From positions 1 to 48,518 of the IMG/VR virus record IMGVR_UViG_3300036791_000092: a DNA stretch of 48,518 nt. The stretch is one strand, 5' to 3'. Of this stretch, positions 3,852 to 48,518 are shown one piece after another. The stretch comes from a virus. Position 1 is the first letter of the stretch; every line of letters starts with the position of its first letter. The notes under the pieces were generated by a model that ran no database searches, had not been told where the DNA came from, and saw only the letters and a list, made by a program, of their open reading frames with translations. The translations under genes and the position numbers were made by a program.

Positions 3852-3872
3852 TTAGTTGGTTGGCTATTGAGA

Positions 3873-3932
3873 CCGCCCACAACCTTATAGGTATGTCTCA
3901 AAAAAGAGACACTAGCAGGAGTAAAAATCGCC
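3873..3932 (+). repeat. GC-capped palindrome P3, directly abutting a start codon
   Basis: ACCGCCCACAACC, then TATAGGTATGTCTCA, an A-run, GAGACACTAGCAGGAG and AAAAATCGCC. The element ends at the base before the ATG at 3933. The AGGAG ribosome binding site at 3917-3921 lies in its right arm, so folding of the hairpin could limit translation. Outer arms are weaker than in other copies. Confidence 0.65.
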
Positions 3933-4547
3933 ATGTCTAAGAAATTTCTCTCACTAACAACTGCTCTTATCTTTGGTCTTTCCACACTACGAGCAGATGC
4001 TGGACAAGCTATCATTGCTGTTCAACCTACTAATACTCCTCCTGTTAATGTTCCTAGTGATCCAAATGCTCAACCATATTTTAATACTGGAACTGCATTT
4101 ACATATATTACAACTCCACCTATATCTTTATCTGCATATGCTTCTGGTAACTGTGTAGGAGGTGCTCAAGCAGTTGCTGGAGCTAGTAGATTTTCTTCTA
4201 GTGGTGTAGCAACTGCTCCTAAAAGTTTGTGGATTACTAGTATTCAGATTATTGATAGATCCATTCAGAATATCCCTATTGATTTGGTGGTTTTTGATAA
4301 TAATAATGGATTATATACAGATAATACTCCTTGTAATATCAATGCTGCTGATACTGGTAAAATAATTGCTGTTTTTCATATTACTGATTGGTCAACAGCT
4401 GGATATGGATTGGCATTTTATAATGCTAATTTTCATATTTTAAGTGTTGCTCCTAGTGGGAATTTATATATTATTGCTGTAGCTAGAGGAGCAGCTACTT
4501 ATACTGCTTTGGCACTTACTTTTAAGTATTCTATTATTCAAGATTGA
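3933..4547 (+). CDS. Secreted structural-type protein, paralogue A
   Basis: 204 residues. Residues 1-22 look like a Sec signal peptide (MSKKFLSLTTALIFGLSTL, then RADA before GQA). The mature part (GSPISL-like start, CVGGAQAVAGASRF, APKSLWITSIQIIDRSIQN, DLVVFDNNN, VFHITDWSTAGYG, LYIIAVARGAATYTALALTF) matches a phage virion protein family of beta-rich decoration or baseplate type. It is a tandem duplicate of the next gene, with near-identical PVNVPSDPNAQPY and TDNTPC motifs. The gene is markedly more AT-rich than the GH5 gene before it. A signal peptide on such a protein is unusual: the product may act in the envelope, for instance in receptor masking. Confidence 0.6.
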   Translation: MSKKFLSLTTALIFGLSTLRADAGQAIIAVQPTNTPPVNVPSDPNAQPYFNTGTAFTYITTPPISLSAYASGNCVGGAQAVAGASRFSSSGVATAPKSLWITSIQIIDRSIQNIPIDLVVFDNNNGLYTDNTPCNINAADTGKIIAVFHITDWSTAGYGLAFYNANFHILSVAPSGNLYIIAVARGAATYTALALTFKYSIIQD

Positions 4548-5646: not shown

Positions 5647-6060
5647 ATGACTACTCGTGTTACAATTGAAGTTTCTGGTAACCCAGTCAAGCTTGTTACC
5701 AGTGCTGATAATGCTTCTACTCCACAGGAGCCGATAGTTACTGAAACTCTTCTTACTCCTGGACAGCCTCATGTTCTTTATGTCTATCCTGGATATTCTA
5801 TTACTGAACTCATTGAGGTGGAGCAAGTCAAAGTAGTTGCTCCACCTCCAGCTGCTAGTGGTATTGATATTGGGACAAATCCTAGTGGAGGAGCCGCTTT
5901 GGCTCCTAGTAAAGAAGCTGTGGGTGGGACTCCGGAACCAACTCCTACTCCTGAGCCATCTCCAACTCCTGTTCCTACTCCAACTCCGGAACCTACTAAG
6001 ACTCCTGCTCCTCATTCATCTTCTTCCTCAAGTTCTAGTTCGAACAAACCCTCAAGATAG
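5647..6060 (+). CDS. Proline-rich small phage protein
   Basis: 137 residues after GGGAG and AGGAA. Residues 1-70 look like a compact beta domain (TTRVTIEVSGNPVKLVTSAD, HVLYVYPGYSITELIEVEQ). The rest is a low-complexity tail of PTPTPEP repeats and a run of nine serines. This two-part form is common for unassigned phage proteins in structural operons. The PT-rich tail is similar in character to the linker of the GH5 protein, so both may be extended surface linkers. Confidence 0.6.
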   Translation: MTTRVTIEVSGNPVKLVTSADNASTPQEPIVTETLLTPGQPHVLYVYPGYSITELIEVEQVKVVAPPPAASGIDIGTNPSGGAALAPSKEAVGGTPEPTPTPEPSPTPVPTPTPEPTKTPAPHSSSSSSSSSNKPSR

Positions 6061-6127
6061 GTGGCCCGAAAGTCTCATACTACGTCTCAAAAAAGAGAAT
6101 ACTAACAGACTTTTAGGGGCCCCAAAC
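6060..6127 (+). repeat. GC-capped palindrome P4, before the Acb2-like gene
   Basis: GTGGCCCGAAAGTCTCATAC, TACGTCTCA, an A-run, GAGAATACTAACAGACTTTT and AGGGGCCCC. It fills the whole gap between the proline-rich gene and the ATG at 6129. AGGGG in the right arm is the only visible ribosome binding site of the next gene. Confidence 0.8.
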
Positions 6128-7150: not shown

Positions 7151-8768
7151 AGAAGATATTGGGTTCTATGATGATACTCTAGCTCTTTCTAGGAAAGATG
7201 CTACTAAAGAGTCAATTTTGCGCTCCGAAGAGCAGATACTACGTCTCAAAAATGAGATACTAACAGAAAGTTCAGGCGCCGAATTAGAGTCCGATCCAGA
7301 GATAACTAGTGGGAATTTTGACAGACTCCAAATCATAGAAGCTTGTAAAATTGATCTCAACTTCTTCGCTGCTATTTCTATTCCAGATACATTTGTTTAT
7401 CCATTCCCAGCTACTCATATTACTGCTTGGCAGATACTTATAGATGGAGAACAAGATAGTGAGCACAAATTCTTACAATTTGCTATTGGTATTCCAAGAG
7501 GACACGCAAAAACTACACTTCTTAAACTCTTCGTTCTTAGATGTATTCTCTTCACAAATAGAAGCTTTTTCCTTATTACCTGTTCAACAGAACAGCATGC
7601 AATTAACTTCATCTCTGATATCGAACTTATGCTCAACAACTCGAACATCAAAGCAATCTTCGGAGATTGGAGACTAGGACTGGAGACGAATACTAGAGGT
7701 TTCAAGAAATTCGGTTTCAATGGTCGGAGTATTACTATCTTTGGTATCGGAGCAGAAGGTTCTGTTCGTGGTATTAATGTTGGTAACTCACGACCAGATG
7801 TTATTGTTATGGATGATATTCAGACTAAAGAATGTGCAGACTCTATTCTCATGAGTAAAGCACTTCTTGAGTGGATGGTTGGGACTCTTATGAAGGCTAA
7901 GAGTCCAAAGGGTTGTATGTTCATCTTTGCAGGGAATATGTTTGCTGCTAGAGGTAGTATTCTTAGGCAGTTGAAAACTAATCCTACTTGGATCAAGTTC
8001 ATTTCTGGAGCTATTCTTGCGGATGGTAGAGCTCTTTGGCCAGAACATCGTTCATTAGAGAGTTTGATTGAGGAACTCAATAATGATATTGCTATGGGTC
8101 AGGCTCATATCTTCTTCTCAGAAGTCCTTAATGATACCAATGCTGGGATCAATTCTACAGTCGATTATAGTAAATTCCCTATTTGGCCTTGGAGTAAAGA
8201 AGATCTTCCACAAGGAAAATTCCTTCTCATAGATCCTTCTCAAGGTAAGGGGAAGGATGCAGATGTTATTGTTACTGTTGAAGTCTACGACTCGAAAGTT
8301 GGGATCAGAGCAGTTCATGAGGATTACTATTCTCCGGCGAATTTGATCAGGAAAGCTCTGATTATAGCTATTCAGTCTGAGATATATTGTATAGCTATCG
8401 AAGCAATGGCTTATCAAAGCACTCTCATTTTTTGGTTTGAACAAATCTGTCAGGATATTGGCATCAGTGGAATATCTTTTGTTCCTATCTACACGAATTC
8501 CTACTCCAAGAACTCTCGTATCTCTAGTGCAATCAAAGCAATGCAGACTCGGGAGATATATCTTCATGACTCTATCAGAAGTGTTGTTCAGAGACAGATA
8601 GCAGATTGGAACCCTTTGAAGAGGGATAACAAAGATGATATTCTTGATGCTATTAGTAATGCTCCAAAAGTTGTGGCCGAATATACTTATGATATTATGT
8701 GTAAGAGTAATCTCTTAGTTCTTGAAGCCAACAAGGCTGAAGTAGTGGAATTTAATAGTTGTTTTTGA
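7140..8768 (+). CDS. terL: Terminase large subunit (ATPase/nuclease)
   Basis: 542 residues. The DNA-packaging motor has Walker A IPRGHAKTT at 118-126, Walker B VIVMDD at 221-226 with the catalytic acid just after the beta strand, and an RNase-H-like nuclease with LLIDPSQ (Asp365) and a later DDILDA. Length is usual for the family. Residues 27-50 (ILRSEEQILRLKNEIL and following) are encoded by a copy of the dispersed GC-capped palindrome, placed before the ATPase core. That region is variable in terminases, so the insert is likely tolerated. It pairs with the preceding TerS candidate and the portal downstream. Confidence 0.92.
   Translation: MTLREDIGFYDDTLALSRKDATKESILRSEEQILRLKNEILTESSGAELESDPEITSGNFDRLQIIEACKIDLNFFAAISIPDTFVYPFPATHITAWQILIDGEQDSEHKFLQFAIGIPRGHAKTTLLKLFVLRCILFTNRSFFLITCSTEQHAINFISDIELMLNNSNIKAIFGDWRLGLETNTRGFKKFGFNGRSITIFGIGAEGSVRGINVGNSRPDVIVMDDIQTKECADSILMSKALLEWMVGTLMKAKSPKGCMFIFAGNMFAARGSILRQLKTNPTWIKFISGAILADGRALWPEHRSLESLIEELNNDIAMGQAHIFFSEVLNDTNAGINSTVDYSKFPIWPWSKEDLPQGKFLLIDPSQGKGKDADVIVTVEVYDSKVGIRAVHEDYYSPANLIRKALIIAIQSEIYCIAIEAMAYQSTLIFWFEQICQDIGISGISFVPIYTNSYSKNSRISSAIKAMQTREIYLHDSIRSVVQRQIADWNPLKRDNKDDILDAISNAPKVVAEYTYDIMCKSNLLVLEANKAEVVEFNSCF
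7219..7288 (+). repeat. GC-capped palindrome P5 inside terL
   Basis: TTGCGCTCCGAAGAGCAGAT, ACTACGTCTCA, A-run, TGAGATACTAACAG, then AAAGTTCAGGCGCCGAA. The core is the same as in intergenic copies, but here it is read as coding sequence in a frame different from the MSQ-peptide copies. The frame stays open. Confidence 0.8.
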
Positions 8769-12609: not shown

Positions 12610-13308
12610 ATGACTGCGTTTAGGATGACTGGACTCAGGGGTATTATGGGTGAAGCCATTAGTCCTGGGGATAGTGTTCTCTCTGGGGACTTGACAGCTT
12701 CAGTTCCAACAGTTGGTTCTACTACTCTCACAGCTGCGCAGATTGTTAGTGGGAATATCTTCAGATCCGGATCTGGAGCCGGGTATACTGATACTTTCGA
12801 TACCACTGGAAATGTTCTTAATGCACTAGGAGGAAATCTTCCTGGGGGTGCTATCGTCAACGGATTGAGTCTCAAGCTTCGGATTGTAAACACTGTTGCT
12901 TTTGCTGAAACTATTACTCTTCCAAATGGATATGTTACTGGACTAGGAACAGTAGCATCTGTTGCTGCTTCCACTTGGAGAGACTTTCTCCTTACTTTCA
13001 CCAACACTCAACCTCCAGTTAGTAACGTCTGCAATACTACTAGTGGTTCAGCAGTTGTTACTTGGAACCTTCCTGTAGGACAGCCTGTTCAGCCTATTGG
13101 TGTGAGTCCTCTTGCTATTAACATCATGCCTGGTTGTTCAGTTAGTGGACCCGGTGTTCCTGCTAATACAACAGTTCTTTCTGTTCAACAAGGTCAGGGT
13201 GGAAGTGTTGGATTTACTATGAGTGCCAATGCTACTATTACTGGCATTGCTGCTCTTACCTTCCAGCCTGTTATTACTGTCAACAGTTTGGGCTCCGGAC
13301 CTCTATAA
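12610..13308 (+). CDS. Capsid decoration/head-fibre type protein
   Basis: 232 residues, rich in Gly, Thr, Val and Ser and predicted all-beta (TGLRGIMGEAISPGDSVLSG at the start; GSAVVTWNLPVGQPVQPIG and MPGCSVSGPGVPANTTVLSV later). Directly upstream of the capsid gene, the usual slot for a decoration or stabilising protein. The last codons (LGSGPL and stop) fall inside palindrome P7, so the C-terminus and stop codon are element-derived. Confidence 0.55.
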   Translation: MTAFRMTGLRGIMGEAISPGDSVLSGDLTASVPTVGSTTLTAAQIVSGNIFRSGSGAGYTDTFDTTGNVLNALGGNLPGGAIVNGLSLKLRIVNTVAFAETITLPNGYVTGLGTVASVAASTWRDFLLTFTNTQPPVSNVCNTTSGSAVVTWNLPVGQPVQPIGVSPLAINIMPGCSVSGPGVPANTTVLSVQQGQGGSVGFTMSANATITGIAALTFQPVITVNSLGSGPL

Positions 13309-13357
13309 GTTTGTCTCAAAAAAGAGAATACTTATAGACTTTTTCGGCCACCAATCA
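13288..13357 (+). repeat. GC-capped palindrome P7 at a gene end
   Basis: GGGCTCCGGACCTCTATAAG, TTTGTCTCA, A-run, GAGAATACTTATAGAC and TTTTTCGGCCACCAATCAG. The left arm encodes the last residues and TAA of the decoration gene. The right arm ends about 20 bases before the capsid ATG. Confidence 0.8.
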
Positions 13358-14602: not shown

Positions 14603-14624
14603 AAGGATCAAAGACCAACTATTT

Positions 14625-14690
14625 GGGCGCCGAATTTCTTGATACTATGTCTCAAAAATGAGAATACCTATTAAGAATTCCGGCGCTCAA
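14625..14690 (+). repeat. GC-capped palindrome P8
   Basis: GGGCGCCGAATTTCTTGATA, CTATGTCTCA, A-run, GAGAATACCTATTAAG, AATTCCGGCGCTC. The arms pair well along most of their length. It fills most of the 119-base gap between the capsid gene and the next gene. Confidence 0.85.
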
Positions 14691-14721
14691 CAAATCTCTT
14701 ACCAGAAGGAATTTCTCTCAA

Positions 14722-21610: not shown

Positions 21611-24600
21611 ATGGCTGATGATGAGTTTCTTAATCCAACAAATCCTTTAGGTATTGCTGGTGCTGGAGGAATTGGAACTGGATCTCGTTTTAGTTCGGGC
21701 GCCGAAACTCCTGATAGTATGTCTCAAAATTTAGACACTACCAGCCCGATCAGGCCGTCATCATATGCAGATAGAGTTTCTAATACTCTGACTGGTGCAT
21801 CTTTAGATGCTCAGGCTCAAGGTTCCAAACCTATTTCAGATATCGCATATGATCTAGTAACCAAAGCTGCTCCTCTTACTGGTGCAGCAGTTGTTAACTC
21901 CTTCTACAACACAGCAGTAGAAATAGGAAACTTCCTTGGTGGAGATTTCCACAAGGCTACTATCGAAGATGAATTCGGACCAAGTTCTGAAACTACTGCT
22001 TACTATCAACAACATGCTGGTCCAATAGAAGGAGCAGCTTTAGCTATAGGATCTCTTGCTCCAGGTCTCGGAGCAATCAAAGTTCTCAAACTCGCACAAG
22101 CTGGGAAGTTTGGGAATGCTATGAAGATAACTACTGGTCTAGCTTCTGGTATTCAAGATGCTGCAATCAAAGCAGCCGCTGATGATATGGTTGGGAATGC
22201 TACTGGAGCTAGTCTGTTTGGACTCTCTTCAGTTAACAAGACTAAAGCTATTCTCGCTGGTATCGGAGATCAGGCTCTCCAAGGAGTTGCATATCAGACT
22301 GCTACTCTAGCTACTATGCACGCTAGTCCGATAACAGATGCGAATACATTTGGGGATAATCTTTCTGATGTCTTTGATGCGGCCAAAGGATTTGCAGTAG
22401 TTGGAGGTTTGATAGAAGGGGCTTCTTCTATTTATAAGATCAACAAAGCTATCAAAGCAGCAGACTTGAGCACTAAACAACAAGAAGCTTTTGGTCTCCT
22501 AGGAAAAGGTAACTACACTCCTGGGGATCGAGTAGTTAAAGCTTATGAGACTCTGGATCAGATACCTGCTCCAACTAATACTCTTGGACAGCAGAAACTC
22601 AACATAACGACTCATACTACTAATCGAGAGATCCAGAAGATCCTAATCGGAGCAGCTGGTGGGGATGAAGAAGTTGCTGGGACTTTTAGGAACTTCCTTG
22701 AGAAAGGAAGAAAGGATGGTTCCATAGGTCCAGAGGAACTTCAGAATAATCTCGGTCAGATGTCTAGAATTGGAAGATATGATGATATTGGAGTAGTCTC
22801 TACTCCTAGTGATGTTTTCTATATTCCTTCTAAGATTGATCCTGCTGGTATTTCTACTTCTACTCATGATGATCTTATGTTTCGAGACTCTCATTCAGAT
22901 TTTGACACTCAAGTATCCAGAGCTATGACTCTGACAAATCCAACTCAACTTCCAACTATCGGGCGCGCCACAGACCGATTGGTATTGAGCCCGTTAGGTA
23001 TGCAAACTTCCGGCGTCACAGCACAAAAATATGCTGGAGTTCTTGATGCTTATAAGCAAGGAGTTGATATCTTCATCTCTTCTGATGGTAAGACTCATAT
23101 CAATCCATCTTCTGGAACTTTCAAAGAAGTTGCTCGTCCTGGAGAAAGTAGAGTTCTTTCAGTAGCAGAAAGAGCAGAATATGAAAAGACTGGAAATCTT
23201 CCTAAGGACTCTAAACCTTTGGAGTCTGTAGGAACTATTCTTGATACTGCTACTGGTAAACTCTTTGATGCAGCAAGTCCTCCACTTCCAGTAGTCGGAG
23301 ATATTGGTAAGCCAAATCTTACTAATCAAGGTCTCATGGTTGGGAAACAAGTATTCCCTCAGAAAGCTGGATCAGAATTCGATCCTCTTTCAGTTACTCC
23401 TCTTGATGCTAATGCTCGATACGTTTGGGCTTCTCTCAGAGGGATTAAGAACTCTGACTCTATAGCATCAAACGATCTTCCTATGCTAGAGCAAATGTAT
23501 AGAGAAAAAGCCGCAGGTTTTGAGCATGAGAATATACCTGTTTTTAATGACGGTTCTAGCGTTCCTTCTACTGCTGGAGATCTTCTCGATCATATTTCCC
23601 AGTTAAAACAAGCAGCATATGGAGATCTGTTGAGTCAAGGAAAGAATACTGATGAGATTGGTCGGATACTTAACTCTCCGACTAGTGGAATGACTAAGAA
23701 CTTTAATTCCTTAGATCCAGCAGATCTGATAACTGATCCTGCTCTTAATGCAAACACTCGTCATATTCGTCTAGCTTATGATATTGGAACTACTAAGGAC
23801 TCTGAAGGAAATCTTCTTAGAGGTCTACAGAATACTAATTATCGAGTTAAGTTAGCAAGAGATACTAACTCTGATACTGTATCCAATTACCTCTCCACAA
23901 TCTCAGGAGGTTCTCAACAAAGAGCTCAGGAACTCTTCTCTAGACTCCAATTCACTAAAGGTGCTGGAGATGCAGATATCTTAGGCGCAGGAAGTTCTTT
24001 CCTACGAAATGCGAACTCTGACTTTGGAACTATTGGTCAACAATCCGAACGGATGGGTAGAGCAGTTTCTGAGATTGGAACTCAAAGAACTTCAGTAGTA
24101 GCAGATACTCTAGCTAGTCCAACTAATTCCTTACGAAGAGATCCTGCTCTAGCAGCAGAGTATGGGAATTTCGTAGCAGTCAGGAGAATGACTGGAGAAC
24201 ATTATGTTCTTCTCTCAGATGTAGATGCAGCAGCAAATAAACTGCCGCCCAACACTGCTATACTAGAGGGGGCTGTTAAGAAAGATCCGAAAACTGGAGC
24301 AGTTACTATTGATAGAACATACCTACCAAATGGTTTTGTATCTGGTGATACAGATATGCAAGGGTTCTTTGGAACTACTCAGAGGAATGTTCTCAAATCC
24401 TATTACACTCTTTCCCCTGAAGTAGTAGCAGTAGAACGAGCTTCTCAGGGTTTGAACAATATTCGTAACTCTCTTAGATCAGATTGGTGGAAATCTCAGG
24501 GAATAAACAAAGAAGCTCCTAATCCTGATCGTCTTTACACTCCTCCGATAGATGGAAGTAAGTATCCATTCTTTGCTTATGTTCGCCAGAAAGAAGGATA

Positions 24601-26929
24601 TGCTCTTGGAGAGAGTGGAGCTAGTATCATAACTGCTAGAAGTGATGCAGAACTCCAGACTAAGATTGCTAGACTTGGTCCTGAGTGGGATGCGTTCACT
24701 AAAGAAGAGATTGCTGATTTCAAAAGAAGTCAAGGAGAATATGAATTCAATCGGAACTTCATGAATAATCAAGCGAATACTGAACTTGCTAGAAAAGGTA
24801 TTCTAAACAATGTGGTTCCTGATACTAGAGCACAAACAGCTATTGACGATCTAGCTAGCTGGCATTATAAACAAGAACTTCAACTTCTCAGGGATCATGT
24901 AGAACTTCACAATGCAGAACCATTTGCTCAACTCACTGCAATGGGTCAGAGATTTGCTGATACTGGAACTGCTAGATTTGGAGCTATAACTCCATTCATG
25001 GCTAGAACTGCTACTAATCCTTACAACTCATACATACGAACTGCTCTTGGAGTCTCCAGTAAGGACAACTATCCTCTTTGGCAACTAGCACAAGAGAGAC
25101 TAGAGTCCTTTGGAGATACTGCTTTTAATAGAATTCGAGATGCTTTTGGAGCTACTAGGAAAGGACTTCTTTCTGTTGAAGATGCGAGTAAAGTATCTGA
25201 GAAGTTTGGTCTAGGAAATCCTTATGGAACTGCTCTGGATCAGATGAGTAGGGAACAGAACTATTATGGAGGATTAGCTAATCAACTTCCTAATCCTGGG
25301 CTCTTCTCTAAGTTCATAGCTACTGCGAATACTGCTCTTGGAGCTACAATCATTCGACTGGATACTTTCCAGCAACTTATCCATGCAGTTACGATGCCTA
25401 TCATGAGTGCATTGGAATTTGGTTCTGCTAGTAAGGACTTGCAAAAACTTCTTACTATCCAAGTTCCGGGCCAGCAATCGTTAACAGTTCCAGGTTTCTC
25501 AAGAACTCTCTTCAATGCTGTGAAGAACTATTTCGGTCCAGACTCTGAGAAACTTCAAACTCTCTACCAGTCAACTGGACTCACTAGAGATGAACTCCAA
25601 GTTCACCGTCAGATGATTAATGAACTCTCTATGCCACTAGGAAAACTCTCAGAAAGTGGCTGGGCTCAGAAGATAGATAATGCTTCTCAGTATGCAGAAC
25701 GTCTGACTGGAACTAAGTTCACAAATCAATTCATCCATTTCGTCTCTTCAGATATTGGTCGACAACTAGGAGAAGCTGTTGGTCAAACTGGTCAGGATCT
25801 TCTTGATACTATCGGAACTTTCTCGAATAGAGTTCTTGGAAACATATCTGCTGGTCAGAGAGCAGGAATATTCCAAGGACCAGTAGGACAAGCAGTTGGT
25901 CTATTCCAATCCTACCAATGGAACTTGATGCAGCAACTTCTCAGACATATAGGAGAAGGAGATGTTAAGAGTCTTGCTATGGGTGCTGGTATGCAGTCTA
26001 GCATTTTTGGTCTCAGTTCTCTTCCAGGGTTCCATGCACTTAACTCAATCATAGCGGAGAAACATGGAAATACTCAGGGAAATGATCTATACAGTGCTGC
26101 TAATAGCATGTTGGGTCAGACTGCTTCTGATTATCTTCTCTATGGAAGTCTCAGCGGACTTACGGGATTATCACTCTATTCAAGAGGTGATATTAATCCT
26201 CGCAGTACTACTATTCTTCCGGTCAATCCTCTTAACTTCCCGTCTGTATCAGCAGGAATTCGTGTATACCAAACTCTCGCTCAATTGGAAAATAATATCA
26301 CTACAAAGGGTGGTGATATTCCTACTTCTCTGTTGCTTGCTGCTGAACATAATGGTTTATCAAGACCACTCTCAGGAATAGCTCAGTTGATGCAAGGGTT
26401 CTCTACTGCTCCAAGTGGGAACTTGATCTCTACTAATCCAGGATTTTCAGATCTTTCAAATATCTCTACTATGAGTAGAATACTTGGAGCAAAACCTTTA
26501 GAAGAAGCTACAGCTATGGATGCTATGTATAGGAGTAATGCTCTAAAGACTCTAGATAGAGCTAGACTTCAGGAACTTGGAAGTGCTGCTATGACTGTTA
26601 TGTATGGAGATCATCCTCTAGCACCAGAGGTAACTCATCAATTCCTATCTGATTATGTGAAAGCAGGAGGAAATGTTAATAACTTCAACTCCTGGTTCAT
26701 GCAAAAAAGTAAGGATGCAAATACAGCAGCTGTGAATAGAGTGATGGAGAATTTTAGGAGTCCTAGAAGTCAATCCTTAATGGTTCAAATGGGAGGCACC
26801 CCGTTACCAGACTTCCGAAATAATCCTTCAACTACTGCTAGTTCTAGTCCTACTAGAGATTTATCTCCATCTTCAACTGCTACTGCTCCAGTCTCTTCTC
26901 CAGTCCCAGTCTCTGACGAAGTTCAGTAG
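21611..26929 (+). CDS. Large ejection/internal virion protein
   Basis: 1772 residues, the largest gene. It is the last plus-strand gene, in the slot of the giant core protein of podoviruses. Mostly helical, rich in Ala, Ser, Leu and Gln, with a Pro/Ser-rich last 40 residues. Alanine/glycine-rich parts near residues 150-235 could insert in membrane. No lysozyme or transglycosylase motif was confidently found. It carries palindromes P11 (residues about 29-49, PDSMSQNLDTTSP) and P12 (residues about 451-469) in frame, and a lone right-arm relic near 25466. Its last 50 bases overlap the facing minus-strand gene. Confidence 0.7.
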   Translation: MADDEFLNPTNPLGIAGAGGIGTGSRFSSGAETPDSMSQNLDTTSPIRPSSYADRVSNTLTGASLDAQAQGSKPISDIAYDLVTKAAPLTGAAVVNSFYNTAVEIGNFLGGDFHKATIEDEFGPSSETTAYYQQHAGPIEGAALAIGSLAPGLGAIKVLKLAQAGKFGNAMKITTGLASGIQDAAIKAAADDMVGNATGASLFGLSSVNKTKAILAGIGDQALQGVAYQTATLATMHASPITDANTFGDNLSDVFDAAKGFAVVGGLIEGASSIYKINKAIKAADLSTKQQEAFGLLGKGNYTPGDRVVKAYETLDQIPAPTNTLGQQKLNITTHTTNREIQKILIGAAGGDEEVAGTFRNFLEKGRKDGSIGPEELQNNLGQMSRIGRYDDIGVVSTPSDVFYIPSKIDPAGISTSTHDDLMFRDSHSDFDTQVSRAMTLTNPTQLPTIGRATDRLVLSPLGMQTSGVTAQKYAGVLDAYKQGVDIFISSDGKTHINPSSGTFKEVARPGESRVLSVAERAEYEKTGNLPKDSKPLESVGTILDTATGKLFDAASPPLPVVGDIGKPNLTNQGLMVGKQVFPQKAGSEFDPLSVTPLDANARYVWASLRGIKNSDSIASNDLPMLEQMYREKAAGFEHENIPVFNDGSSVPSTAGDLLDHISQLKQAAYGDLLSQGKNTDEIGRILNSPTSGMTKNFNSLDPADLITDPALNANTRHIRLAYDIGTTKDSEGNLLRGLQNTNYRVKLARDTNSDTVSNYLSTISGGSQQRAQELFSRLQFTKGAGDADILGAGSSFLRNANSDFGTIGQQSERMGRAVSEIGTQRTSVVADTLASPTNSLRRDPALAAEYGNFVAVRRMTGEHYVLLSDVDAAANKLPPNTAILEGAVKKDPKTGAVTIDRTYLPNGFVSGDTDMQGFFGTTQRNVLKSYYTLSPEVVAVERASQGLNNIRNSLRSDWWKSQGINKEAPNPDRLYTPPIDGSKYPFFAYVRQKEGYALGESGASIITARSDAELQTKIARLGPEWDAFTKEEIADFKRSQGEYEFNRNFMNNQANTELARKGILNNVVPDTRAQTAIDDLASWHYKQELQLLRDHVELHNAEPFAQLTAMGQRFADTGTARFGAITPFMARTATNPYNSYIRTALGVSSKDNYPLWQLAQERLESFGDTAFNRIRDAFGATRKGLLSVEDASKVSEKFGLGNPYGTALDQMSREQNYYGGLANQLPNPGLFSKFIATANTALGATIIRLDTFQQLIHAVTMPIMSALEFGSASKDLQKLLTIQVPGQQSLTVPGFSRTLFNAVKNYFGPDSEKLQTLYQSTGLTRDELQVHRQMINELSMPLGKLSESGWAQKIDNASQYAERLTGTKFTNQFIHFVSSDIGRQLGEAVGQTGQDLLDTIGTFSNRVLGNISAGQRAGIFQGPVGQAVGLFQSYQWNLMQQLLRHIGEGDVKSLAMGAGMQSSIFGLSSLPGFHALNSIIAEKHGNTQGNDLYSAANSMLGQTASDYLLYGSLSGLTGLSLYSRGDINPRSTTILPVNPLNFPSVSAGIRVYQTLAQLENNITTKGGDIPTSLLLAAEHNGLSRPLSGIAQLMQGFSTAPSGNLISTNPGFSDLSNISTMSRILGAKPLEEATAMDAMYRSNALKTLDRARLQELGSAAMTVMYGDHPLAPEVTHQFLSDYVKAGGNVNNFNSWFMQKSKDANTAAVNRVMENFRSPRSQSLMVQMGGTPLPDFRNNPSTTASSSPTRDLSPSSTATAPVSSPVPVSDEVQ
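21696..21757 (+). repeat. GC-capped palindrome P11, coding, MSQ peptide
   Basis: CGGGCGCCGAAACTCCTGAT, AGTATGTCTCAAAA, TTTAGACACTACCAG and CCCGATCAGGCCG. Read in frame it gives PDSMSQNLDT, the same peptide core as in three minus-strand proteins. Confidence 0.85.
22960..23016 (+). repeat. Palindrome P12, coding, degenerate
   Basis: CGGGCGCGCCACAGACCGAT, GGTATTGAGCCCG, GGTATGCAAACTTCCGGCG. GC caps are clear, the core has decayed, and the frame is open. Confidence 0.5.
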
Positions 26930-32724: not shown

Positions 32725-32743
32725 TGAGAAGTTCCTTCTATTG

Positions 32744-32804
32744 CCGCCCGGAAAGTTCTATACCTATTCTCATTTTTGAGACATACTATAGAACTCTCCG
32801 GCGG
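32744..32804 (-). repeat. GC-capped palindrome P15, best hairpin
   Basis: CCGCCCGGAAAGTTCTATAC, CTATTCTCA, TTTTT, then TGAGACATACTATAGAACTC and TCCGGCGG. Arms of about 28 bases pair almost throughout around a short loop. It fills the gap between the exonuclease and the ssDNA-binding candidate. The A-run is on the minus (coding) strand. Confidence 0.9.
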
Positions 32805-32823
32805 TCTGGTTAGAAGTCGGAAG

Positions 32824-34772: not shown

Positions 34773-35810
34773 TTACTCCTTTTTGTTATAGATATTCATC
34801 TTTCCAACTTGACCTTCTACTAGATCAAGAATGCTGAACTCAATAGGATATTCTCCTACCTTATCAAACCTAGGCTCTGGAAGTTTCGGACCAAACATCA
34901 ACTCATTCCTGAAGTGACAAGTTCCATAATGAGTGCATTGTTTTCCGAATGAGAAACAACTCTCCCCACGTTGAGGAAAGTATCCAGCCTCTGAGTATCC
35001 TCTGATATGCTCCATATCCAGAAGGAGACTCTGAAGCCAAAGAGCTCTGGAACTGTTGTTCTTAGGGAACCTGAAAGGAACCCATTCCATCTTTCTAGTC
35101 ATATACACTGGATAGAAGATGTCATAGGAGTTGTATTCGATCTCCATCTCATGGGCTACTCTGTCAATAACAACGCCATAACCAATTCCTTGGCTACTAT
35201 TGCCATACATGGCTTCGTCAAGGTAAGCCCATCCTGTAGTCTTACATTCAAGAGGTAAGAACTCTCGTCTAATCTTATGAATGAGAAGTGCGTCAAGCTT
35301 TCCCCTATAGGTAAAACCATCCCCACAGTCGATAGAAAAGCCAAGCTCAATGGCTGGTCTACCTTGATAGTATGCCAATTCATATTGAGCAAGAGGTCCA
35401 TTGAGTATCTCCTGAAACTTACTGATTGCTATGAGAGCGTGCCAGAAAGTCTTGGAGGACTTCAAACCTCTTTCACTTTCCAGATTATCATTCCAAGTGA
35501 TGAAAGCTTTGAAGTATGCCTTCTCAATGGAATGAGTAACAAGGAGTTCTTGAACTCCATTTCCTACAACACTTCCGAAATCCAAATGTCCAGCAGAGTC
35601 TGGATCAATATCTGGATCGTAGTTACGAACAGAATATCTGTTGAGTTCGTAGCGACGAGGACAAGAGTGGAGAGTTAGAAGGGAGGAATAGGAAGTTGTT
35701 CTGAGATTGTAGTGCAGTTCGCTATTTGGCGCCCGATCAACTACATAAGTATCTCTTTTTTGAGACATACTATCCAGATTTTCGGGCCACAAATCAGAGT
35801 CATTGCTCAT
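34773..35810 (-). CDS. Cas4/AddB-like PD-(D/E)XK nuclease
   Basis: 345 residues from ATG at 35810 (an in-frame TTG lies four codons earlier). SYSSLLTLHSCPRRYELNRY at about 40-59, then GKLDALL (Asp173) and LECKTTG (Glu188, Lys190) form the PD-(D/E)XK core. One early Cys plus three late Cys in CFSFGKQCTHYGTCHF suggest the 4Fe-4S cluster of Cas4 and AddB nucleases. It would process DNA ends for the Sak4-like recombinase. Residues about 5-27 (LDSMSQKRDTYVVDRAP) come from palindrome P17, right behind the start codon. Confidence 0.8.
   Translation of the reverse strand: MSNDSDLWPENLDSMSQKRDTYVVDRAPNSELHYNLRTTSYSSLLTLHSCPRRYELNRYSVRNYDPDIDPDSAGHLDFGSVVGNGVQELLVTHSIEKAYFKAFITWNDNLESERGLKSSKTFWHALIAISKFQEILNGPLAQYELAYYQGRPAIELGFSIDCGDGFTYRGKLDALLIHKIRREFLPLECKTTGWAYLDEAMYGNSSQGIGYGVVIDRVAHEMEIEYNSYDIFYPVYMTRKMEWVPFRFPKNNSSRALWLQSLLLDMEHIRGYSEAGYFPQRGESCFSFGKQCTHYGTCHFRNELMFGPKLPEPRFDKVGEYPIEFSILDLVEGQVGKMNIYNKKE
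35727..35797 (-). repeat. GC-capped palindrome P17, coding, MSQ peptide
   Basis: On the plus strand TTGGCGCCCGATCAAC, AAGTATCTC, T-run, TGAGACATACTATCCAG and TTTTCGGGCCACAAATCAG. On the coding strand it reads LDSMSQKRDT. It sits at the extreme N-terminus of the nuclease. Confidence 0.85.
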
Positions 35811-38757: not shown

Positions 38758-39735
38758 TTACTGAGTATTACGTCTCTTCGCAAGAAGAAGTCTGACTTTC
38801 TCAGCCGGAGTTAGAACTCTGGTGGGTTCCTGTGGTTGCTCTTGTTTGGAGGGAGAAATATCATTACCAGGAGTTTTATTATCACTACTATTATCACTAG
38901 TGCTAACAAGAACCTCATGAACTGCATCTTGCAAGTTCCTTCCTTCTGGATCTAAGAGAGTGTAGTCGATTTCTAGATATTCTGGTTCTTCTCTTGTTTC
39001 TATTGATGGCCTGGAAATCTCGGTAGTATCTCTTTTTTGAGACATAGTATCAGACTTGTTAGGCCGCAAATTTTCATACATCTCTTCATCAAATCTATAT
39101 CCAAGTTCTTCTTCTTTCTGATCTTGCTCCAACTCTTTCTCTCTAGCCTCTTCCAATCTCCTTCTTTTCAATTCCTTTTGCTCTTTCAAGAGTTCTGCCT
39201 CTTCCTCCATCTGCTTGAATTCTCCCTTACCTTTGAAGAATTCAATCTTATCCTCCAGTGTAACTCCACGAACCTTATGACTCTTAACTCCTTTGAAGAA
39301 TGAGTCTGTCTCACAGATGATGTGAAGTTTCTTTCTTGCTCTAGTTACAGCAGTATAGAGAAGTTCATTGTTCAACAGAGGTCCAGCATGACTGGAATGA
39401 AGAAGGAGAAATACATTCTCAGCTTCTGATCCTTGCATCTTATGCACAGTGATTGCATATCCACCAAGAAGATCGTTAACTTCTCCAGCACCTATGAGTA
39501 TCATAGTCTCATCTGAGTAAGTGAATTGTATCTCTATCGCATGAGAAGCAGCATTAGTCTTATCCTCGTCATCATCTCCGAAACTTTCGAGGAATTTATC
39601 CATACTAGCGAGACCAAACTCTGCATCTTCTTTAGCTTCTTGCGCTAGTTCCTCATCAGTTTTTTCTTTCTGAAGAGTTCCCCATCTGTCTAGGAATTGA
39701 GAAGGATGTTGAGGAGACTTACCAAGATAAGTCAT
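38758..39735 (-). CDS. RecD-like SF1 helicase, C-terminal part after the amber codon
   Basis: 325 residues from the first ATG after the stop. AITVHKMQGSEAENVFLLLH and LLNNELLYTAVTRARKKLHI are helicase motifs V and VI. It is in the same frame as the upstream N-terminal part: beyond TAG at 39811-39813 the frame continues as KHYLAVGDRVLFDKEDATII without another stop up to this ATG. So it is probably made by readthrough, or is the broken end of one gene. Residues about 225-248 (DTMSQKRDT) come from palindrome P18. The tail is acidic and flexible. Confidence 0.75.
   Translation of the reverse strand: MTYLGKSPQHPSQFLDRWGTLQKEKTDEELAQEAKEDAEFGLASMDKFLESFGDDDEDKTNAASHAIEIQFTYSDETMILIGAGEVNDLLGGYAITVHKMQGSEAENVFLLLHSSHAGPLLNNELLYTAVTRARKKLHIICETDSFFKGVKSHKVRGVTLEDKIEFFKGKGEFKQMEEEAELLKEQKELKRRRLEEAREKELEQDQKEEELGYRFDEEMYENLRPNKSDTMSQKRDTTEISRPSIETREEPEYLEIDYTLLDPEGRNLQDAVHEVLVSTSDNSSDNKTPGNDISPSKQEQPQEPTRVLTPAEKVRLLLAKRRNTQ
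39008..39069 (-). repeat. GC-capped palindrome P18, coding, MSQ peptide
   Basis: On the plus strand GGCCTGGAAATCTCGGTAGT, ATCTC, T-run, GAGACATAGTATCAGAC and TTGTTAGGCCGCAAAT. On the coding strand it gives DTMSQKRDTTEISRP, flanked by RP residues from the GC caps. Confidence 0.85.
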
Positions 39736-39810: not shown

Positions 39811-41169
39811 CTATTCTCTAGCTATTACTTCATGAACTATTGCATCTCTTTCCTTACCAAGGAAGTTACTAATTCCTTTGTTGAGTTCAAGAGTTCCGAA
39901 ACTTTTGTTGAATGGACAGAGAATAACATCCTCATCAGGATTGTAATATCCAATCTTCTTCCAAGCATGAAATTGCATTACTGAGATATTCTCAGCAACA
40001 CTCTTCTCTAGAGATTTCTGCCAGATTTGGAACTTAACTTCTCCATGCTCTCCACTCTCATTGAAAGCCTCAAGAGCAGGAACACTTTTGTAATCTTTGA
40101 TAACAAGAGGTTTCTGAGTTTTTGGATCAATTACGAATGGATGCTGATAGTTCTTGATACTAGCAGTCTGAGCAGAGAACTTACTACTATCTCCCGATAG
40201 TATCGAATGTGCCAGGCGGATAATAGGACTCAGAAGTGCTTGTCTATAGACTTCATCCAACTGGACTACTTGAAGAAGAGACATCTTGAAACCAAGAATT
40301 GCTGGTCCAAAGATAGGAGGAAGTTGATGAATATCTCCAATGAAGATCTCTTGTGGAGAGTGAGGAAGAGCAGCAATCAGAAGATTGTAGAGATCAGTTC
40401 CAATCATGGAACTCTCTTCATAAGCTATGAGTTTGAGGTTCCTAGGAAGAGGATTGAAAGCACCTCTTTGAGGCTCAAACTTCATAGTTCTCTTCATTGA
40501 GTTTGTCTTAGTATCCCAGATCTCGTAAAAGACTGGAGCGAATTCTAAGACCTTATGAATAGTAAGAACATGAGGTTTGAGAAGATCAGAAACTGCTCGT
40601 TTGATGTTGTTAACTGCTTTACGAGTAAAGGAGCAGATTAGGACTCCAGGAACATTCGCTCGTAACCATTTAGTATCTGATCCGAGTTCTTCCAAATCTC
40701 CACTCTCAATCAGAGCATTAGTGAATTTTCCAACAACTGTTGTTTTCCCAGTTCCTGCTGCTCCAATTAGACAAATATCTTCTCCACTCAGAGCAGTTTC
40801 CATGAAGAGTTTCTGTTTGGAATTAAGAGTAACATCTGCTGCTACTCCTTTGAGTTTGTTTCGCTCCTTAGCAGTTAGTTTGTGCGCCGGAACTTCTGTT
40901 AGTAAGTCTATTTTTTGAGACAAACTACCAGACTGTTCGGGCCGCGAATGTATGTCTTGAATAATCTCAATAACTTCCTCTTCATCACTATCCTCTGAAA
41001 GTCCTAGATTACTCAAATCAACTTCCTCAACTCCATTCATCTGAAGAGAGTGAGAAGTAGTATCCAAAGAAGCAAGAGAAGCAATCCGAGACTCTTCTCT
41101 AGAAGCTTCAAGTTTAGCCTTAGCTTTAGCTAGGATCTCTTGAAACTTATTCGATTGCATTCCGCTCAT
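39811..41169 (-). CDS. RecD-like SF1 helicase, N-terminal part ending at an in-frame amber codon
   Basis: 452 residues to TAG. Walker A LIGAAGTGKTTVVGKF, Walker B LIAYEESSMIG, motif III FIGDIHQLPP and motif IV-like LDEVYRQALLSPIIRLAHSI define an SF1B RecD/Dda-type helicase. The stop falls just before the SH3-like LAVGDRVLF part expected in the same chain, and the C-terminal motifs follow in frame, for 804 codons in all. An unwinding role in replication or recombination is likely. Residues about 97-118 (SGSLSQKIDLLTE) come from palindrome P19. Confidence 0.85.
   Translation of the reverse strand: MSGMQSNKFQEILAKAKAKLEASREESRIASLASLDTTSHSLQMNGVEEVDLSNLGLSEDSDEEEVIEIIQDIHSRPEQSGSLSQKIDLLTEVPAHKLTAKERNKLKGVAADVTLNSKQKLFMETALSGEDICLIGAAGTGKTTVVGKFTNALIESGDLEELGSDTKWLRANVPGVLICSFTRKAVNNIKRAVSDLLKPHVLTIHKVLEFAPVFYEIWDTKTNSMKRTMKFEPQRGAFNPLPRNLKLIAYEESSMIGTDLYNLLIAALPHSPQEIFIGDIHQLPPIFGPAILGFKMSLLQVVQLDEVYRQALLSPIIRLAHSILSGDSSKFSAQTASIKNYQHPFVIDPKTQKPLVIKDYKSVPALEAFNESGEHGEVKFQIWQKSLEKSVAENISVMQFHAWKKIGYYNPDEDVILCPFNKSFGTLELNKGISNFLGKERDAIVHEVIARE
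40883..40946 (-). repeat. GC-capped palindrome P19, coding, SQ peptide
   Basis: On the plus strand GCGCCGGAACTTCTGTTAGT, AAGTCTA, T-run, GAGACAAACTACCAG and ACTGTTCGGGCCGCGAAT. Coding strand: SGSLSQKID, the same core as MSQKRD with small changes. Confidence 0.85.
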
Positions 41170-43672: not shown

Positions 43673-43963
43673 CTATCTCTTAAATCTCACTTGAAATCCA
43701 AGAGAAGTATATTTCTCAATCAATTTCCTTCTCATTTCATCCCTATCTTTTGCTCTATCTTCTCCAGACCAATCAACAGAGACAGGAGAAGATATAGAAG
43801 GAGGAAATTCTACTCCATTTACTTCCCATCTGTATACATTAGTTTCTGGTTCAAATCCATAATAGTTATGAGTTCCTACTTCATATCCAGCTTTGGATAT
43901 GATTAGTTTATGGAAGTTTATTATGAGTGTTGTCTTATCTGTATTTGCCACTTTTTTCTCCAT
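43673..43963 (-). CDS. Hypothetical protein
   Basis: 96 residues from ATG at 43963, directly after a partial palindrome. Compact (TTLIINFHKLIISKAGYEVG, HNYYGFEPETNVYRWEVNGV), ending in charged helix (DRDEMRRKLIEKYTSLGFQV). A longer reading from 44086 would have to be translated through the element and overlap the neighbour. No family recognised. Confidence 0.5.
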   Translation of the reverse strand: MEKKVANTDKTTLIINFHKLIISKAGYEVGTHNYYGFEPETNVYRWEVNGVEFPPSISSPVSVDWSGEDRAKDRDEMRRKLIEKYTSLGFQVRFKR

Positions 43964-44012
43964 AGTAGTCTCATTTTTGAGACATAGGTATAAAGATAAA
44001 ATCGGTCTGGTT
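43964..44012 (-). repeat. Partial palindrome abutting a start codon
   Basis: GTAGTCTCA, T-run, GAGACATAGGTATAAAG on the plus strand; the A-run is on the coding strand. GC caps are reduced to GACCGA-like remains. It stands right before the ATG of the 96-residue protein. Confidence 0.55.
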
Positions 44013-45599: not shown

Positions 45600-45645
45600 A
45601 ATCACCGAGTTAGTATCAATCTCTCAATACTAACTCAGAAATTTA
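45600..45645 (-). promoter_or_regulatory. Leader hairpin
   Basis: GAGTTAGTAT (45607-45616) pairs perfectly with ATACTAACTC (45627-45636). Outside it, CAATCAAT and ATTGATT also pair. The TTAGTAT core is similar to the inner arm of the dispersed palindromes but GC caps are absent. It lies in the leader of the 81-residue gene. Confidence 0.5.
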
Positions 45646-46273: not shown

Positions 46274-46312
46274 GCGGCCTGAAACCTTGATACTAAGCCC
46301 TAATACCAAGGT
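46274..46312 (-). repeat. Partial palindrome relic
   Basis: GCGGCCTGAAACCTTGATAC followed by TAAGCCCTAATACCAAGGTT. AACCTTG and CAAGGTT pair well. One GC cap remains. It lies between the 33-residue gene and the 60-residue gene. Confidence 0.5.
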
Positions 46313-46334
46313 TACAAGTATGTAATCTTTGTAT

Positions 46335-46517
46335 CTAGTTAGGCATCTTCAACTGATTGAGATTATTCATGATAGTATGAACTAAACCGATATCCCAAGG
46401 TTCTGCAATTTGATCCTCATACAACTTCAGTGCCTGTTTGAGAATAGCAACACCATTAGGTGTAATAATGAGTGTCTCACTTGGCAGATAGTTTATGAGA
46501 TTGGGACTGTCAGACAT
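46335..46517 (-). CDS. Hypothetical small protein
   Basis: 60 residues from ATG at 46517 (MSDSPNLINYLPSETLIITP, VAILKQALKLYEDQI). A GTG at 46592 could extend it to 85 residues, but that would place the CTAG-box element C1 inside the coding part, whereas the other copies are all intergenic. Function unknown. Confidence 0.5.
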   Translation of the reverse strand: MSDSPNLINYLPSETLIITPNGVAILKQALKLYEDQIAEPWDIGLVHTIMNNLNQLKMPN

Positions 46518-46567
46518 TTGAATATACTCTATTTCTATTCTAGAACCACTTCTAGGATAGGCTGAGG

Positions 46568-46616
46568 CTAGATAAGTATCAGATCCAGTCACTTACCTAG
46601 TCTCAGTATGCCCTAG
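46568..46616 (-). promoter_or_regulatory. CTAG-box element C1
   Basis: On the minus strand: CTAG, 12 bases with CATACT, CTAG, 8 bases, CTGG, 13 bases, CTAG. Most diverged of four copies (49 bp). It begins four bases after the stop codon of the 237-residue gene. Confidence 0.6.
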
Positions 46617-46619
46617 CCC

Positions 46620-47333
46620 TCAGAGAGAAGCAAGAGAAATCTGTTTCTCCTCAGGAGGATTGATAATTGTTTCCAGTTTCCTTTCTAGCTTGCGAGCAAT
46701 GATATTAGTATCTTTAGCATCTCCCATCAACTCAATAGCCATCTTCAATTGCTTAGCCTCAGAGATATTAACCTTAGGAGTTGGAGCTGCTAGGCGTGCA
46801 AGAACAGCACAATAGCCATTAGACATCTGCTCCAGCTTCTTTTCCTGTTCTTTAGTCAACTCCTTACTCTCCAACGTAATCATGCCAGACTTTTCAGCAA
46901 TGGCCAACATAACAAGATGGGATAGGGTTTCCTCATACCAAGTTTCAATCTGCTTAGCATTAAGCTTCCCTCGTGAACTATCACTATCACTTTCCTCGCT
47001 CAGAAACTCAGCCAAAATCTGTCTCGGTTCAAGCAATTCCGCTGGTATGTCATTGCATACGCCACCATTAGTTTCAAGCATCATGGTGACATACTTATGA
47101 GCAGTAGCTTTCTGTCGCATCTCTACAGCATCAATCAGGATATCAACAAAATCCTTATCCTCACCATTGAGGACAGGGAACCATTGAGGAATAGAGATAT
47201 ATCGTGCGCTATGTGCTTCACGACCTGTTTTGGTATTACCCTTCCAACCAAGAACAACAATCCTATCCCCAGGGAGTTCTGTTCCCTGTTTGCCAGTCCA
47301 CATACGAACTGGATAAGCTTGACGAATATGCAC
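46620..47333 (-). CDS. Early phage protein, conserved-looking
   Basis: 237 residues from GTG at 47333 with AAAGGAG eight bases before it. A compact N-terminus (LPGDRIVVLGWKGNTKTGRE, SARYISIPQWFPVLNGEDKD), then helices (AKQIETWYEETLSHLVMLAI, SEAKQLKMAIELMGDAKDTN). Less AT-biased than the genes to its left. No catalytic motif. Located downstream of element C2 in the earliest region. Confidence 0.55.
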   Translation of the reverse strand: MHIRQAYPVRMWTGKQGTELPGDRIVVLGWKGNTKTGREAHSARYISIPQWFPVLNGEDKDFVDILIDAVEMRQKATAHKYVTMMLETNGGVCNDIPAELLEPRQILAEFLSEESDSDSSRGKLNAKQIETWYEETLSHLVMLAIAEKSGMITLESKELTKEQEKKLEQMSNGYCAVLARLAAPTPKVNISEAKQLKMAIELMGDAKDTNIIARKLERKLETIINPPEEKQISLASL

Positions 47334-47375
47334 GATACGCTCCTTTATAAGAGTTATAAGATAGTTCCTGTTAGG

Positions 47376-47426
47376 CTAGATCAGGCTACTAGCTAGGTTC
47401 TCACGCTAGCTAATAGTATGCTCTAG
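47376..47426 (-). promoter_or_regulatory. CTAG-box element C2
   Basis: Exactly 51 bp: CTAG boxes spaced 13, 9 and 13. The central boxes form a stem (TTAGCTAG with CTAGCTAG) around about nine bases. The first box contains the TAG stop of the upstream 78-residue gene (47423-47425). Confidence 0.75.
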
Positions 47427-47659
47427 ACCAAATGGGCAGTTACAGCAAGCATTTTATCCTTAGTATCCTGTCTGACTGGCAAGCATGTTGTCCTGTTCTT
47501 TCCCAGTCTGACAGAGCCTGAGTTACCAAGATACCAAAATTTACAATCAGGCACTTCAGGATGTTGATAGGCTAGATACTTATTGGTTTTGTTTACACGC
47601 TTGAAGCCACGGCTTTCCAGAGCCATAGCAAACCGTGTCTGTAGTGTTAACTTAGCCAT
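47423..47659 (-). CDS. Small basic early protein
   Basis: 78 residues after AAAGGAA. Basic and compact: LQTRFAMALESRGFKRVNKT, YLAYQHPEVPDCKFWYLGNS, GSVRLGKNRTTC. The fold pattern (helix then beta hairpins, Gly-Phe turn) is similar in spirit to HicA-like dsRNA-binding proteins, but the match is too weak to assign. Lies between elements C2 and C3. Confidence 0.55.
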   Translation of the reverse strand: MAKLTLQTRFAMALESRGFKRVNKTNKYLAYQHPEVPDCKFWYLGNSGSVRLGKNRTTCLPVRQDTKDKMLAVTAHLV

Positions 47660-47700
47660 AGGTAAGTTATTCCTTTCCTGTTCAATCCTGCTAGGTATCT

Positions 47701-47751
47701 CTAGATCAGGCTGATAACTAGTCTGTCACACTAGCTATCAGTATGTTCTAG
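47701..47751 (-). promoter_or_regulatory. CTAG-box element C3
   Basis: 51 bp, spacing 13, 9, 13. The centre makes the best hairpin of the family: CTGATAGCTAGT pairs with ACTAGTTATCAG around a 7-base loop. It lies ten bases after the stop of the 40-residue gene. Confidence 0.75.
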
Positions 47752-47760
47752 CGAGGGCAG

Positions 47761-47883
47761 TTATTGTATATCCTTTCTATAACCTTTCTTCCTAACTTGG
47801 CAGAAACTGAATTGTAGCTGCCCGATCCGTAGAAACCTTATACCGCCAATCTTTCGGTATGTAAAGAACTTTTTTGCGTTCAT
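47761..47883 (-). CDS. 40-residue basic peptide
   Basis: MNAKKFFTYRKIGGIRFLRI, then GQLQFSFCQVRKKGYRKDIQ. Its ATG overlaps the stop of the membrane peptide before it (ATGA junction). Basic throughout. Short, but coupling supports translation. Function unknown. Confidence 0.5.
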   Translation of the reverse strand: MNAKKFFTYRKIGGIRFLRIGQLQFSFCQVRKKGYRKDIQ

Positions 47884-48020
47884 GTCAGATAATTCCTAAT
47901 CAAAGAAACAAAGAAAGCAATCCACGTGATTACGAGCGCGGTCACTAGACCACAGCCAATCAATCCATATTCGTTCACACAGTCCGGATACAAATCCAGG
48001 ATCATCTCAACGAGATGCAT
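47880..48020 (-). CDS. 46-residue membrane peptide
   Basis: MHLVEMILDLYPDCVNEYGL, then IGCGLVTALVITWIAFFVSL and IRNYLT. A clear single membrane span after an acidic start; GAAGGAG precedes the ATG. Early expression by position. Could alter the host membrane or exclude other phages; inferred only. Confidence 0.6.
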   Translation of the reverse strand: MHLVEMILDLYPDCVNEYGLIGCGLVTALVITWIAFFVSLIRNYLT

Positions 48021-48044
48021 AGCTAACTCCTTCTCAGTCTGTTT

Positions 48045-48095
48045 CTAGGCTAGGTGACTTGCTAGTTCGCTACTCTAGCAAATCATATAGGCTAG
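48045..48095 (-). promoter_or_regulatory. CTAG-box element C4
   Basis: 51 bp, spacing 13, 9, 13, with TGCTAG and CTAGCA pairing across nine bases. The first box overlaps the TAG stop (48092-48094) of the 54-residue gene. An extra CTAG lies directly inside the last box. Confidence 0.7.
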
Positions 48096-48256
48096 ATGCT
48101 CGCAAAACCGATTGCATTAGCAGCATATCGGATAATAGCCTTGCGTTTCGCACCAAACATTAGACCACCTTGCGCTAGTGCAAGCAAGTCATCCTTAGCT
48201 TCTAACAAGGCATACATATGCCAGTAGAATAGTTTGGTTGCTTCTCTCTTGCTCAT
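48092..48256 (-). CDS. First leftward early gene, 54 residues
   Basis: From ATG at 48256 after AAAGGAAA; an in-frame upstream ATG is not shared by the left-end copy. KREATKLFYWHMYALLEAKD, DLLALAQGG, KRKAIIRYAANAIGFASI: helical, basic. Truncated copy at window bases 1-83. Being first behind the divergent region it is probably the earliest expressed gene. Function unknown. Confidence 0.6.
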   Translation of the reverse strand: MSKREATKLFYWHMYALLEAKDDLLALAQGGLMFGAKRKAIIRYAANAIGFASI

Positions 48257-48518
48257 CTCTATTTTTCCTTTCTCTCTGCTCCGATAACCAGACATTAGAG
48301 CATCTGATATCGATAGTCAACATAGAAATGATAGGGAAAGATTACAAAATGTTAATGTTAAAGTCCTACAAAACCCATCAATCCGATCGATCCTATAGGA
48401 TACATCAATCATATAGGCCATATAAATCCCATAGGATACATAAATCCCATCGGATTAGTAGGAAATAGCACGATAGTTGGCTAGATTGGTGGCCACCTAT
48501 CACGATAGGTATCTAGCA
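48174..48518. repeat. Right terminal repeat, imperfect
   Basis: Matches bases 1-99 and 203-316 exactly, with a diverged 132-base middle against 103 at the left. The extra part includes ATCCGATCGATCCTATAGGA, a palindrome-like stretch. The AGGCCATATAAATCCCATAG stretch repeats short CATAGG words. Closing the circle here gives a genome of about 48.2 kb. Confidence 0.85.

Follow-up and report, generated by a model that had tools for sequence, protein, structure and literature searches.

The four CTAG-framed elements C1 to C4 of the virus record IMGVR_UViG_3300036791_000092 are best explained as RNA hairpins which serve the processing or stabilisation of a polycistronic early mRNA, a function that on the present analysis has about an even chance of being the correct one. 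The window referred to below is the whole stretch of DNA analysed, that is, the record at its full 48,518 bases. All four elements lie on the minus strand, the strand of the surrounding genes, each flanked upstream by one gene's stop codon and downstream by the next gene's ribosome-binding site (RBS). The gene series is called early on account of its position and the layout of relatives, and a single transcript presumably runs across all its genes. In the proposed mechanism C1-C4 would form hairpins at the gene junctions of this one polycistronic message and would work like the RNase III processing signals of phage T7: an endonuclease, probably the host RNase III, would cut at or near a conserved internal loop, yielding single-gene units with structured ends and free RBSs. 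The size of the elements, their irregular stem and their stop-hairpin-start placement match those of the T7 sites, and processing of the early mRNA is therefore favoured. The elements and their surroundings, in the order of transcription, are:

48328..48355, minus strand: candidate operon promoter, the sole sigma-70-like 10/12 match in the early region, before the first gene
48092..48295, minus strand: 67-aa early gene (ORF list) upstream of C4; no Pfam or PHROG match
48045..48095, minus strand: C4, 51 nt; CTAG 13-9-13; TAG stop of the upstream gene inside the first box
47880..48020, minus strand: 46-aa early gene in the C4-C3 interval; overlaps a possible 40-aa gene at 47761-47883
47701..47751, minus strand: C3, 51 nt; CTAG 13-9-13; starts 9 nt past a TAA stop
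47423..47659, minus strand: 78-aa early gene in the C3-C2 interval
47376..47426, minus strand: C2, 51 nt; CTAG 13-9-13; TAG stop of the upstream gene inside the first box
46620..47333, minus strand: 237-aa early gene in the C2-C1 interval; no known family
46552..46616, minus strand: C1, 65 nt; CTAG 12-25-12; starts 3 nt past a TGA stop
46335..46517, minus strand: 60-aa early gene past C1, with its ATG at 46517
46278..46318, minus strand: 17-bp junction hairpin without CTAG in the next gap, 16 nt past a TAG stop
45605..45638, minus strand: junction hairpin of about 15 bp without CTAG, in the early series; flagged as terminator-like

Structural genes occupy the left half of the record, on the plus strand; replication genes and early genes occupy the right half, on the minus strand. 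Distant kin of its terminase and DNA polymerase were found in the Pseudomonas phages PaP2, 119X and PaMx41 (Fredfastierviridae), as well as in Aeromonas phage P5, Polaromonas phage Tiera and EBPR podovirus 3. The large virion protein encoded at 21611-26929 gave one PHROG match, of unknown function, and no Pfam family. The final 346 bases of the window (48173-48518) repeat the initial 316 (1-316), so that the record must be terminally redundant or an overlapping assembly, and the CTAG elements are located near the beginning of the minus-strand early series. Both flanks of the repeat are identical and its middle part of about 120 bp, ahead of the first early gene, has diverged, as though the early promoter regions of two strain variants had been joined.

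An exact search of the whole window for CTAG-N13-CTAG-N9-CTAG-N13-CTAG returned positions 47376, 47701 and 48045. The original prediction had listed four copies with this spacing, and the one at 46568 did not stand. It had been described as 49 bp long with one CTGG; the string is present, but the register was wrong, since the second box is the pairing partner of the box at 46568, and a further CTAG, at 46552, supplies the outer partner. With boxes at 46552, 46568, 46597 and 46613, C1 is a symmetric 12-25-12 element whose outer boxes are paired in the fold. A covariance model built from C2-C4 only (R1) recovered C1 at 46552-46616 with an E value of 5e-4, and across the window it gave, beyond C1-C4, only chance-level matches and the antisense strands of the same elements. 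No other CTAG quadruple of the exact spacing was detected in the window, nor was an intergenic fourth 13-9-13 copy when up to three mismatches were allowed, in agreement with the earlier observation that no copy occurs elsewhere. The genome contains four copies only, two of them partial duplicates. None of the elements was matched by an Rfam covariance model at E values of up to 2. CTAG words are not unusually frequent in the window (307 versus 283 in dinucleotide shuffles). When 307 such words were placed at random, symmetric quadruples arose at a mean of 0.05 per window and two of the same spacing appeared in 1 of 2000 trials; the window has three same-spacing quadruples and one further symmetric quadruple. 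A chance origin of the CTAG quadruples is negligible.

Read on the minus strand, C1-C4 have a CUAG base, one mismatch, a 2x2 internal loop UA/CC at equal depth and an upper stem. The upper stem of C2-C4 comprises 11 bp and ends in a second CUAG/CUAG block beside a 9-nt loop; the complete fold of C4, for instance, is CUAG, a C.C mismatch, 3 bp, the UA-CC 2x2 loop, 11 bp and the 9-nt loop. The lower part of C1 is the same, with a longer upper stem containing one A.C mismatch and a bigger loop. The lower stem of the elements has 7-8 bp with one mismatch, and arms of 21 nt correspond to about two turns of A-form RNA. A stem of about two helical turns broken by an internal loop is thus present, with 18-23 bp in arms of at least 21 nt and the 2x2 loop.

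Six pairs among C2-C4 have changed on both sides with pairing kept (7-45, 11-41, 12-40, 13-39, 14-38 and 16-36), and pairs 13-39 and 14-38 bear out the compensatory changes noted before between the copies at 47376 and 47701. The total rises to nine when hairpins of the IMG/VR contigs G002 and G003 are included; homology of the latter to the window elements is not established and therefore only the six pairs of the window itself were counted. Comparison of C2 with C4 revealed that the CTAG boxes are kept at all 16 positions, versus 17 identical positions among the remaining 35. The CAUACU/AGCCUG sequences around the internal loop and the CTAG boxes are better conserved than the rest of the stem, and the CATACT word previously seen in three copies was found in them again. 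C2 and C3 have the flank TAACTGCCC and 25 of the 35 non-box bases in common, which implies at least one duplication. In a gap-wide dinucleotide-shuffle test the z scores were -3.7 for C4, -4.6 for C3, -3.5 for C2 and only -1.8 for C1, a weak result that was counted against the processing reading. Two more early gaps, whose hairpins are without CTAG, scored -3.7 and -5.0; a z beyond -2.5 was reached in 5 of 7 early gaps versus 2 of 6 late gaps. The window elements contain 6 G-U pairs in the sense and 6 in the antisense strand, so in the window pairing alone cannot tell an RNA from a DNA dyad. That the elements act as RNA is suggested by where they lie, by the strand of the genes and by the covariation.

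Stop codons are placed at -4 to +9 nt relative to the start of the elements, i.e. within the first box of C2 and C4, 3 nt before C1 and 9 nt before C3. The original prediction, which gave plus-strand coordinates for genes, stop codons and CATACT words of the minus strand, was right in having each element begin at or just after a stop codon, and also in making the TAG stop part of the first box in two copies (48045 and 47376). The distance from the end of the element to the next start codon is 24 nt for C4, 41 nt for C3, 42 nt for C2 and 34 nt for C1, with the RBS outside the hairpin. No U-tract is present past the hairpins C1-C4 (1-5 T in the following 15 nt, with no run), which argues that they are not ordinary terminators, and terminator prediction flagged none of the four. 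The best sigma-70-like matches in the four gaps scored 7-9 of 12 versus a mean of 8.0 in random 120-nt windows, a scoring that covered promoters of the sigma-70 type. Among the roles suggested at the outset (promoter, operator or RNA processing element), position, kept pairing and the T7-like layout favour an RNA element, whereas the promoter matches of the gaps do not exceed those of random sequence.

A second dispersed palindrome family was observed in the same genome. It comprises about 12 copies of about 60 bp on both strands, with the core TGTCTCAAAAAWGAGA and ends such as GGCGCC or GGGCCC:

468-540, 3868-3939, 6055-6126, 7214-7285, 13284-13355, 14620-14691: copies of the second palindrome family
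21692-21763, 32738-32809, 35721-35792, 38998-39069, 40877-40948, 43940-44011: further copies of the same family

Several copies are in frame within ORFs (SMSQKRD, TMSQKRD, SLSQKID), a feature they share with the Rickettsia palindromic elements. The family is also present in the near-identical contig G004 and in the 91 % relative L086, and it is absent from more distant relatives.

When relatives were examined for the box spacing, as the original prediction had proposed, no support for it was obtained, the distant ones being devoid of the element: R1 found no match in 703 kb of phage sequence, relatives included, a scan which covered the early regions of PaMx41, P5, Tiera, EBPR podovirus 3 and IMG/VR relatives. 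CTAG clusters in G005-G009, P5, Tiera, EBPR3 and PaMx41 likewise did not contain any group of four boxes that matched the window elements in spacing or design. The close relatives (91-100 % identity, with IMG/VR 3300036785_000074 at 91 %) are contigs without the early region, scans of IMG/VR with the 237-aa protein, the 78-aa protein, the helicase and the DNA polymerase gave no early-region sequence relatives, and blastn of the early region against phages gave none. The exact 13-9-13 pattern was found in 15 stretches of 84,980 prokaryote genomes, mostly tandem repeats or unpaired chance matches, with one unrelated hairpin (Alkalibaculum). Period-30 tandem repeats with CTAG in 13-9 spacing, unrelated to the window elements, were seen in L059, L065, L068, L071 and L072 (one Planctomycetota MAG) and in L064 and L066 (Shewanella). 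In IMG/VR the exact pattern occurs in four stretches. The matches L007 and L009 were rejected as chance, having no hairpin arms evident in their sequence. Those in G002 and G003 are one intergenic hairpin each, spaced exactly 13-9-13; the first box contains the TAG stop, the RBS follows closely, and a protein encoded near the G002 hairpin has its best matches in BRock-like Streptomyces phages.

Gene junctions were inspected in the Streptomyces phages BRock, LuckySocke and pSt2308. Strong hairpins occupy 12 of 14 plus-strand and 3 of 3 minus-strand early junctions of BRock and 12 of 12 minus-strand junctions of pSt2308; many begin at the stop codon and many are CTAG-framed. The terminal genes concerned are presumably early, judging by their position. 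Strong scores were also obtained for BRock genes beyond the terminal region, hence its hairpins are not confined to the terminal genes. Nine elements of BRock, pSt2308, G002 and G003 were selected because they have CTAG boxes; in 9 of 9 the sense strand gives the more stable fold, with 36 G-U pairs in the sense versus 6 in the antisense strand, which is as expected for RNA. Most junctions near the genome end, at 5927-14314 of L079 (BRock) and 4327-13203 of L080 (pSt2308), carry hairpins of about 60 nt, often with a recurring mismatch region, TTGCATC versus GRTGTTG. Hairpins at L079 13865-13922 (minus strand), L080 4696-4754 (plus strand) and L077 9484-9542 (plus strand) overlap TTGACA-17-TAGGTT, which we take to be a Streptomyces-type promoter layout, and some hairpins may therefore combine a promoter with a hairpin. 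Such junction hairpins were not found described in the limited set of literature searched.

RNase III does not require CTAG. The retention of all 16 box positions between C2 and C4 hints at sequence-specific recognition and would count against RNase III. Since RNase III alone would not conserve CTAG, the main rival explanation is that C1-C4 are RNA operators, i.e. CUAG-framed hairpins that would be bound by a specific phage or host protein, not primarily cut, and would control the stability, translation or antitermination of the early message. Such operators are possible without being probable. The boxes and CAUACU/AGCCUG outdo the rest of the stem in conservation and the box arrangement recurs in unrelated phages, but the RBS is not within the hairpins. 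The 78-aa protein encoded between C3 and C2 gives weak HicA-like (dsRNA-binding-like) structural matches, yet the resemblance is non-significant (single-sequence model with pLDDT 66; Foldseek E 0.3). Tentatively, and with rather low confidence, CUAG-framed hairpins could also constitute a distinct sequence-specific class of early-message punctuation, in which a factor would read paired CUAG blocks at a fixed distance and which would have originated independently in a podovirus-like lineage and in Streptomyces phages.

Binding could also take place at the DNA level, with a repressor or activator recognising a dyad of CTAG half-sites at an early promoter. As DNA, the outer and inner boxes are indeed dyad-symmetric, the G-U pairs of the window favour neither strand, and a few BRock-like elements overlap the promoter layout described above; this explanation is nevertheless unlikely, as the gaps show no promoter-like sequence beyond random for the sigma-70 types scored, the half-sites outside the boxes covary instead of being conserved in sequence, and the elements come after stop codons within a same-strand gene series. 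The lack of an early promoter motif in the gaps and of a U-tract after the hairpins also makes it very improbable that the elements are simple intrinsic terminators or cassettes like the PeSLs of T4-like phages, although PeSLs and the HGTV-1 motif, too, are stem-loops that separate small, variable genes (PMC4503421, PMC3950731). Mobile or duplicated palindromes of REP/RPE type, lying in the gaps by happenstance and having no role in expression, are the least probable explanation. The sequence shared by C2 and C3 and the other palindrome family of the genome are in its favour, but scatter would be expected, as in that family, whereas all four elements belong to a single gene cluster, in which they share type of position and orientation, and the compensatory changes indicate that pairing has been maintained.

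In the textbooks, the punctuation of early mRNA by RNase III in the manner of T7 belongs to one phage group. If the processing function favoured here is true, the junction hairpins of the window and those at most early junctions of BRock-like Streptomyces phages, similar to the T7 sites in structure but unrelated to them, would point to the cutting of early messages into single-gene units as a general phage strategy, for which the BRock-like phages offer a cultured test system; should a specific protein read the CTAG boxes, this would represent a new RNA recognition system.

The T7 early sites were folded with the same tool and compared with reference to their cut positions. Their upper stems measure about 9-13 bp, their lower stems are irregular and their energies range from -18 to -23 kcal/mol; the stop-hairpin-start layout is present, with 27-35 nt to the start codon in 4 of 5. 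R0.3, R0.5, R1, R1.1 and R1.3 resemble the window elements as irregular hairpins of about 45-60 nt, one per early junction. A stop codon coincides with the base or lies close to it (R0.5, R1), an internal loop sits beneath some 10 bp of stem, and the RBS and start codon of the downstream gene come next. The T7 sites differ in that no sequence similarity was seen, a CTAG frame is missing, the apical loop is of 3-5 nt versus 9 nt, and the internal loops are mostly asymmetric versus 2x2 in the window elements, whose cleavage is only predicted. R1.1, for example, is an in vivo RNase III site with a 4/5-nt internal loop (PMC6121014). The PeSLs of T4-like phages and the TATA/inverted-repeat motif of HGTV-1 are, like the window elements, repeated intergenic stem-loops between small early genes (PMC4503421, PMC3950731). 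PeSLs are composite promoter-terminators, whereas the window elements have neither a promoter beyond random nor a U-tract. The resemblance of the window elements to those of the BRock-like set (BRock, LuckySocke, pSt2308 and the uncultured relatives G002 and G003) is one of design, and common descent is not claimed: these phages are unrelated to the window virus, their stems are mostly longer (often 25-28 bp), the conserved sequence around the mismatch differs, and most early junctions carry a hairpin, versus four in the window. Common to both are the stop codon in the base, often as the TAG of a CTAG, the CTAG at the base and often also at the loop, lower-stem mismatches and an RBS that closely follows the hairpin.
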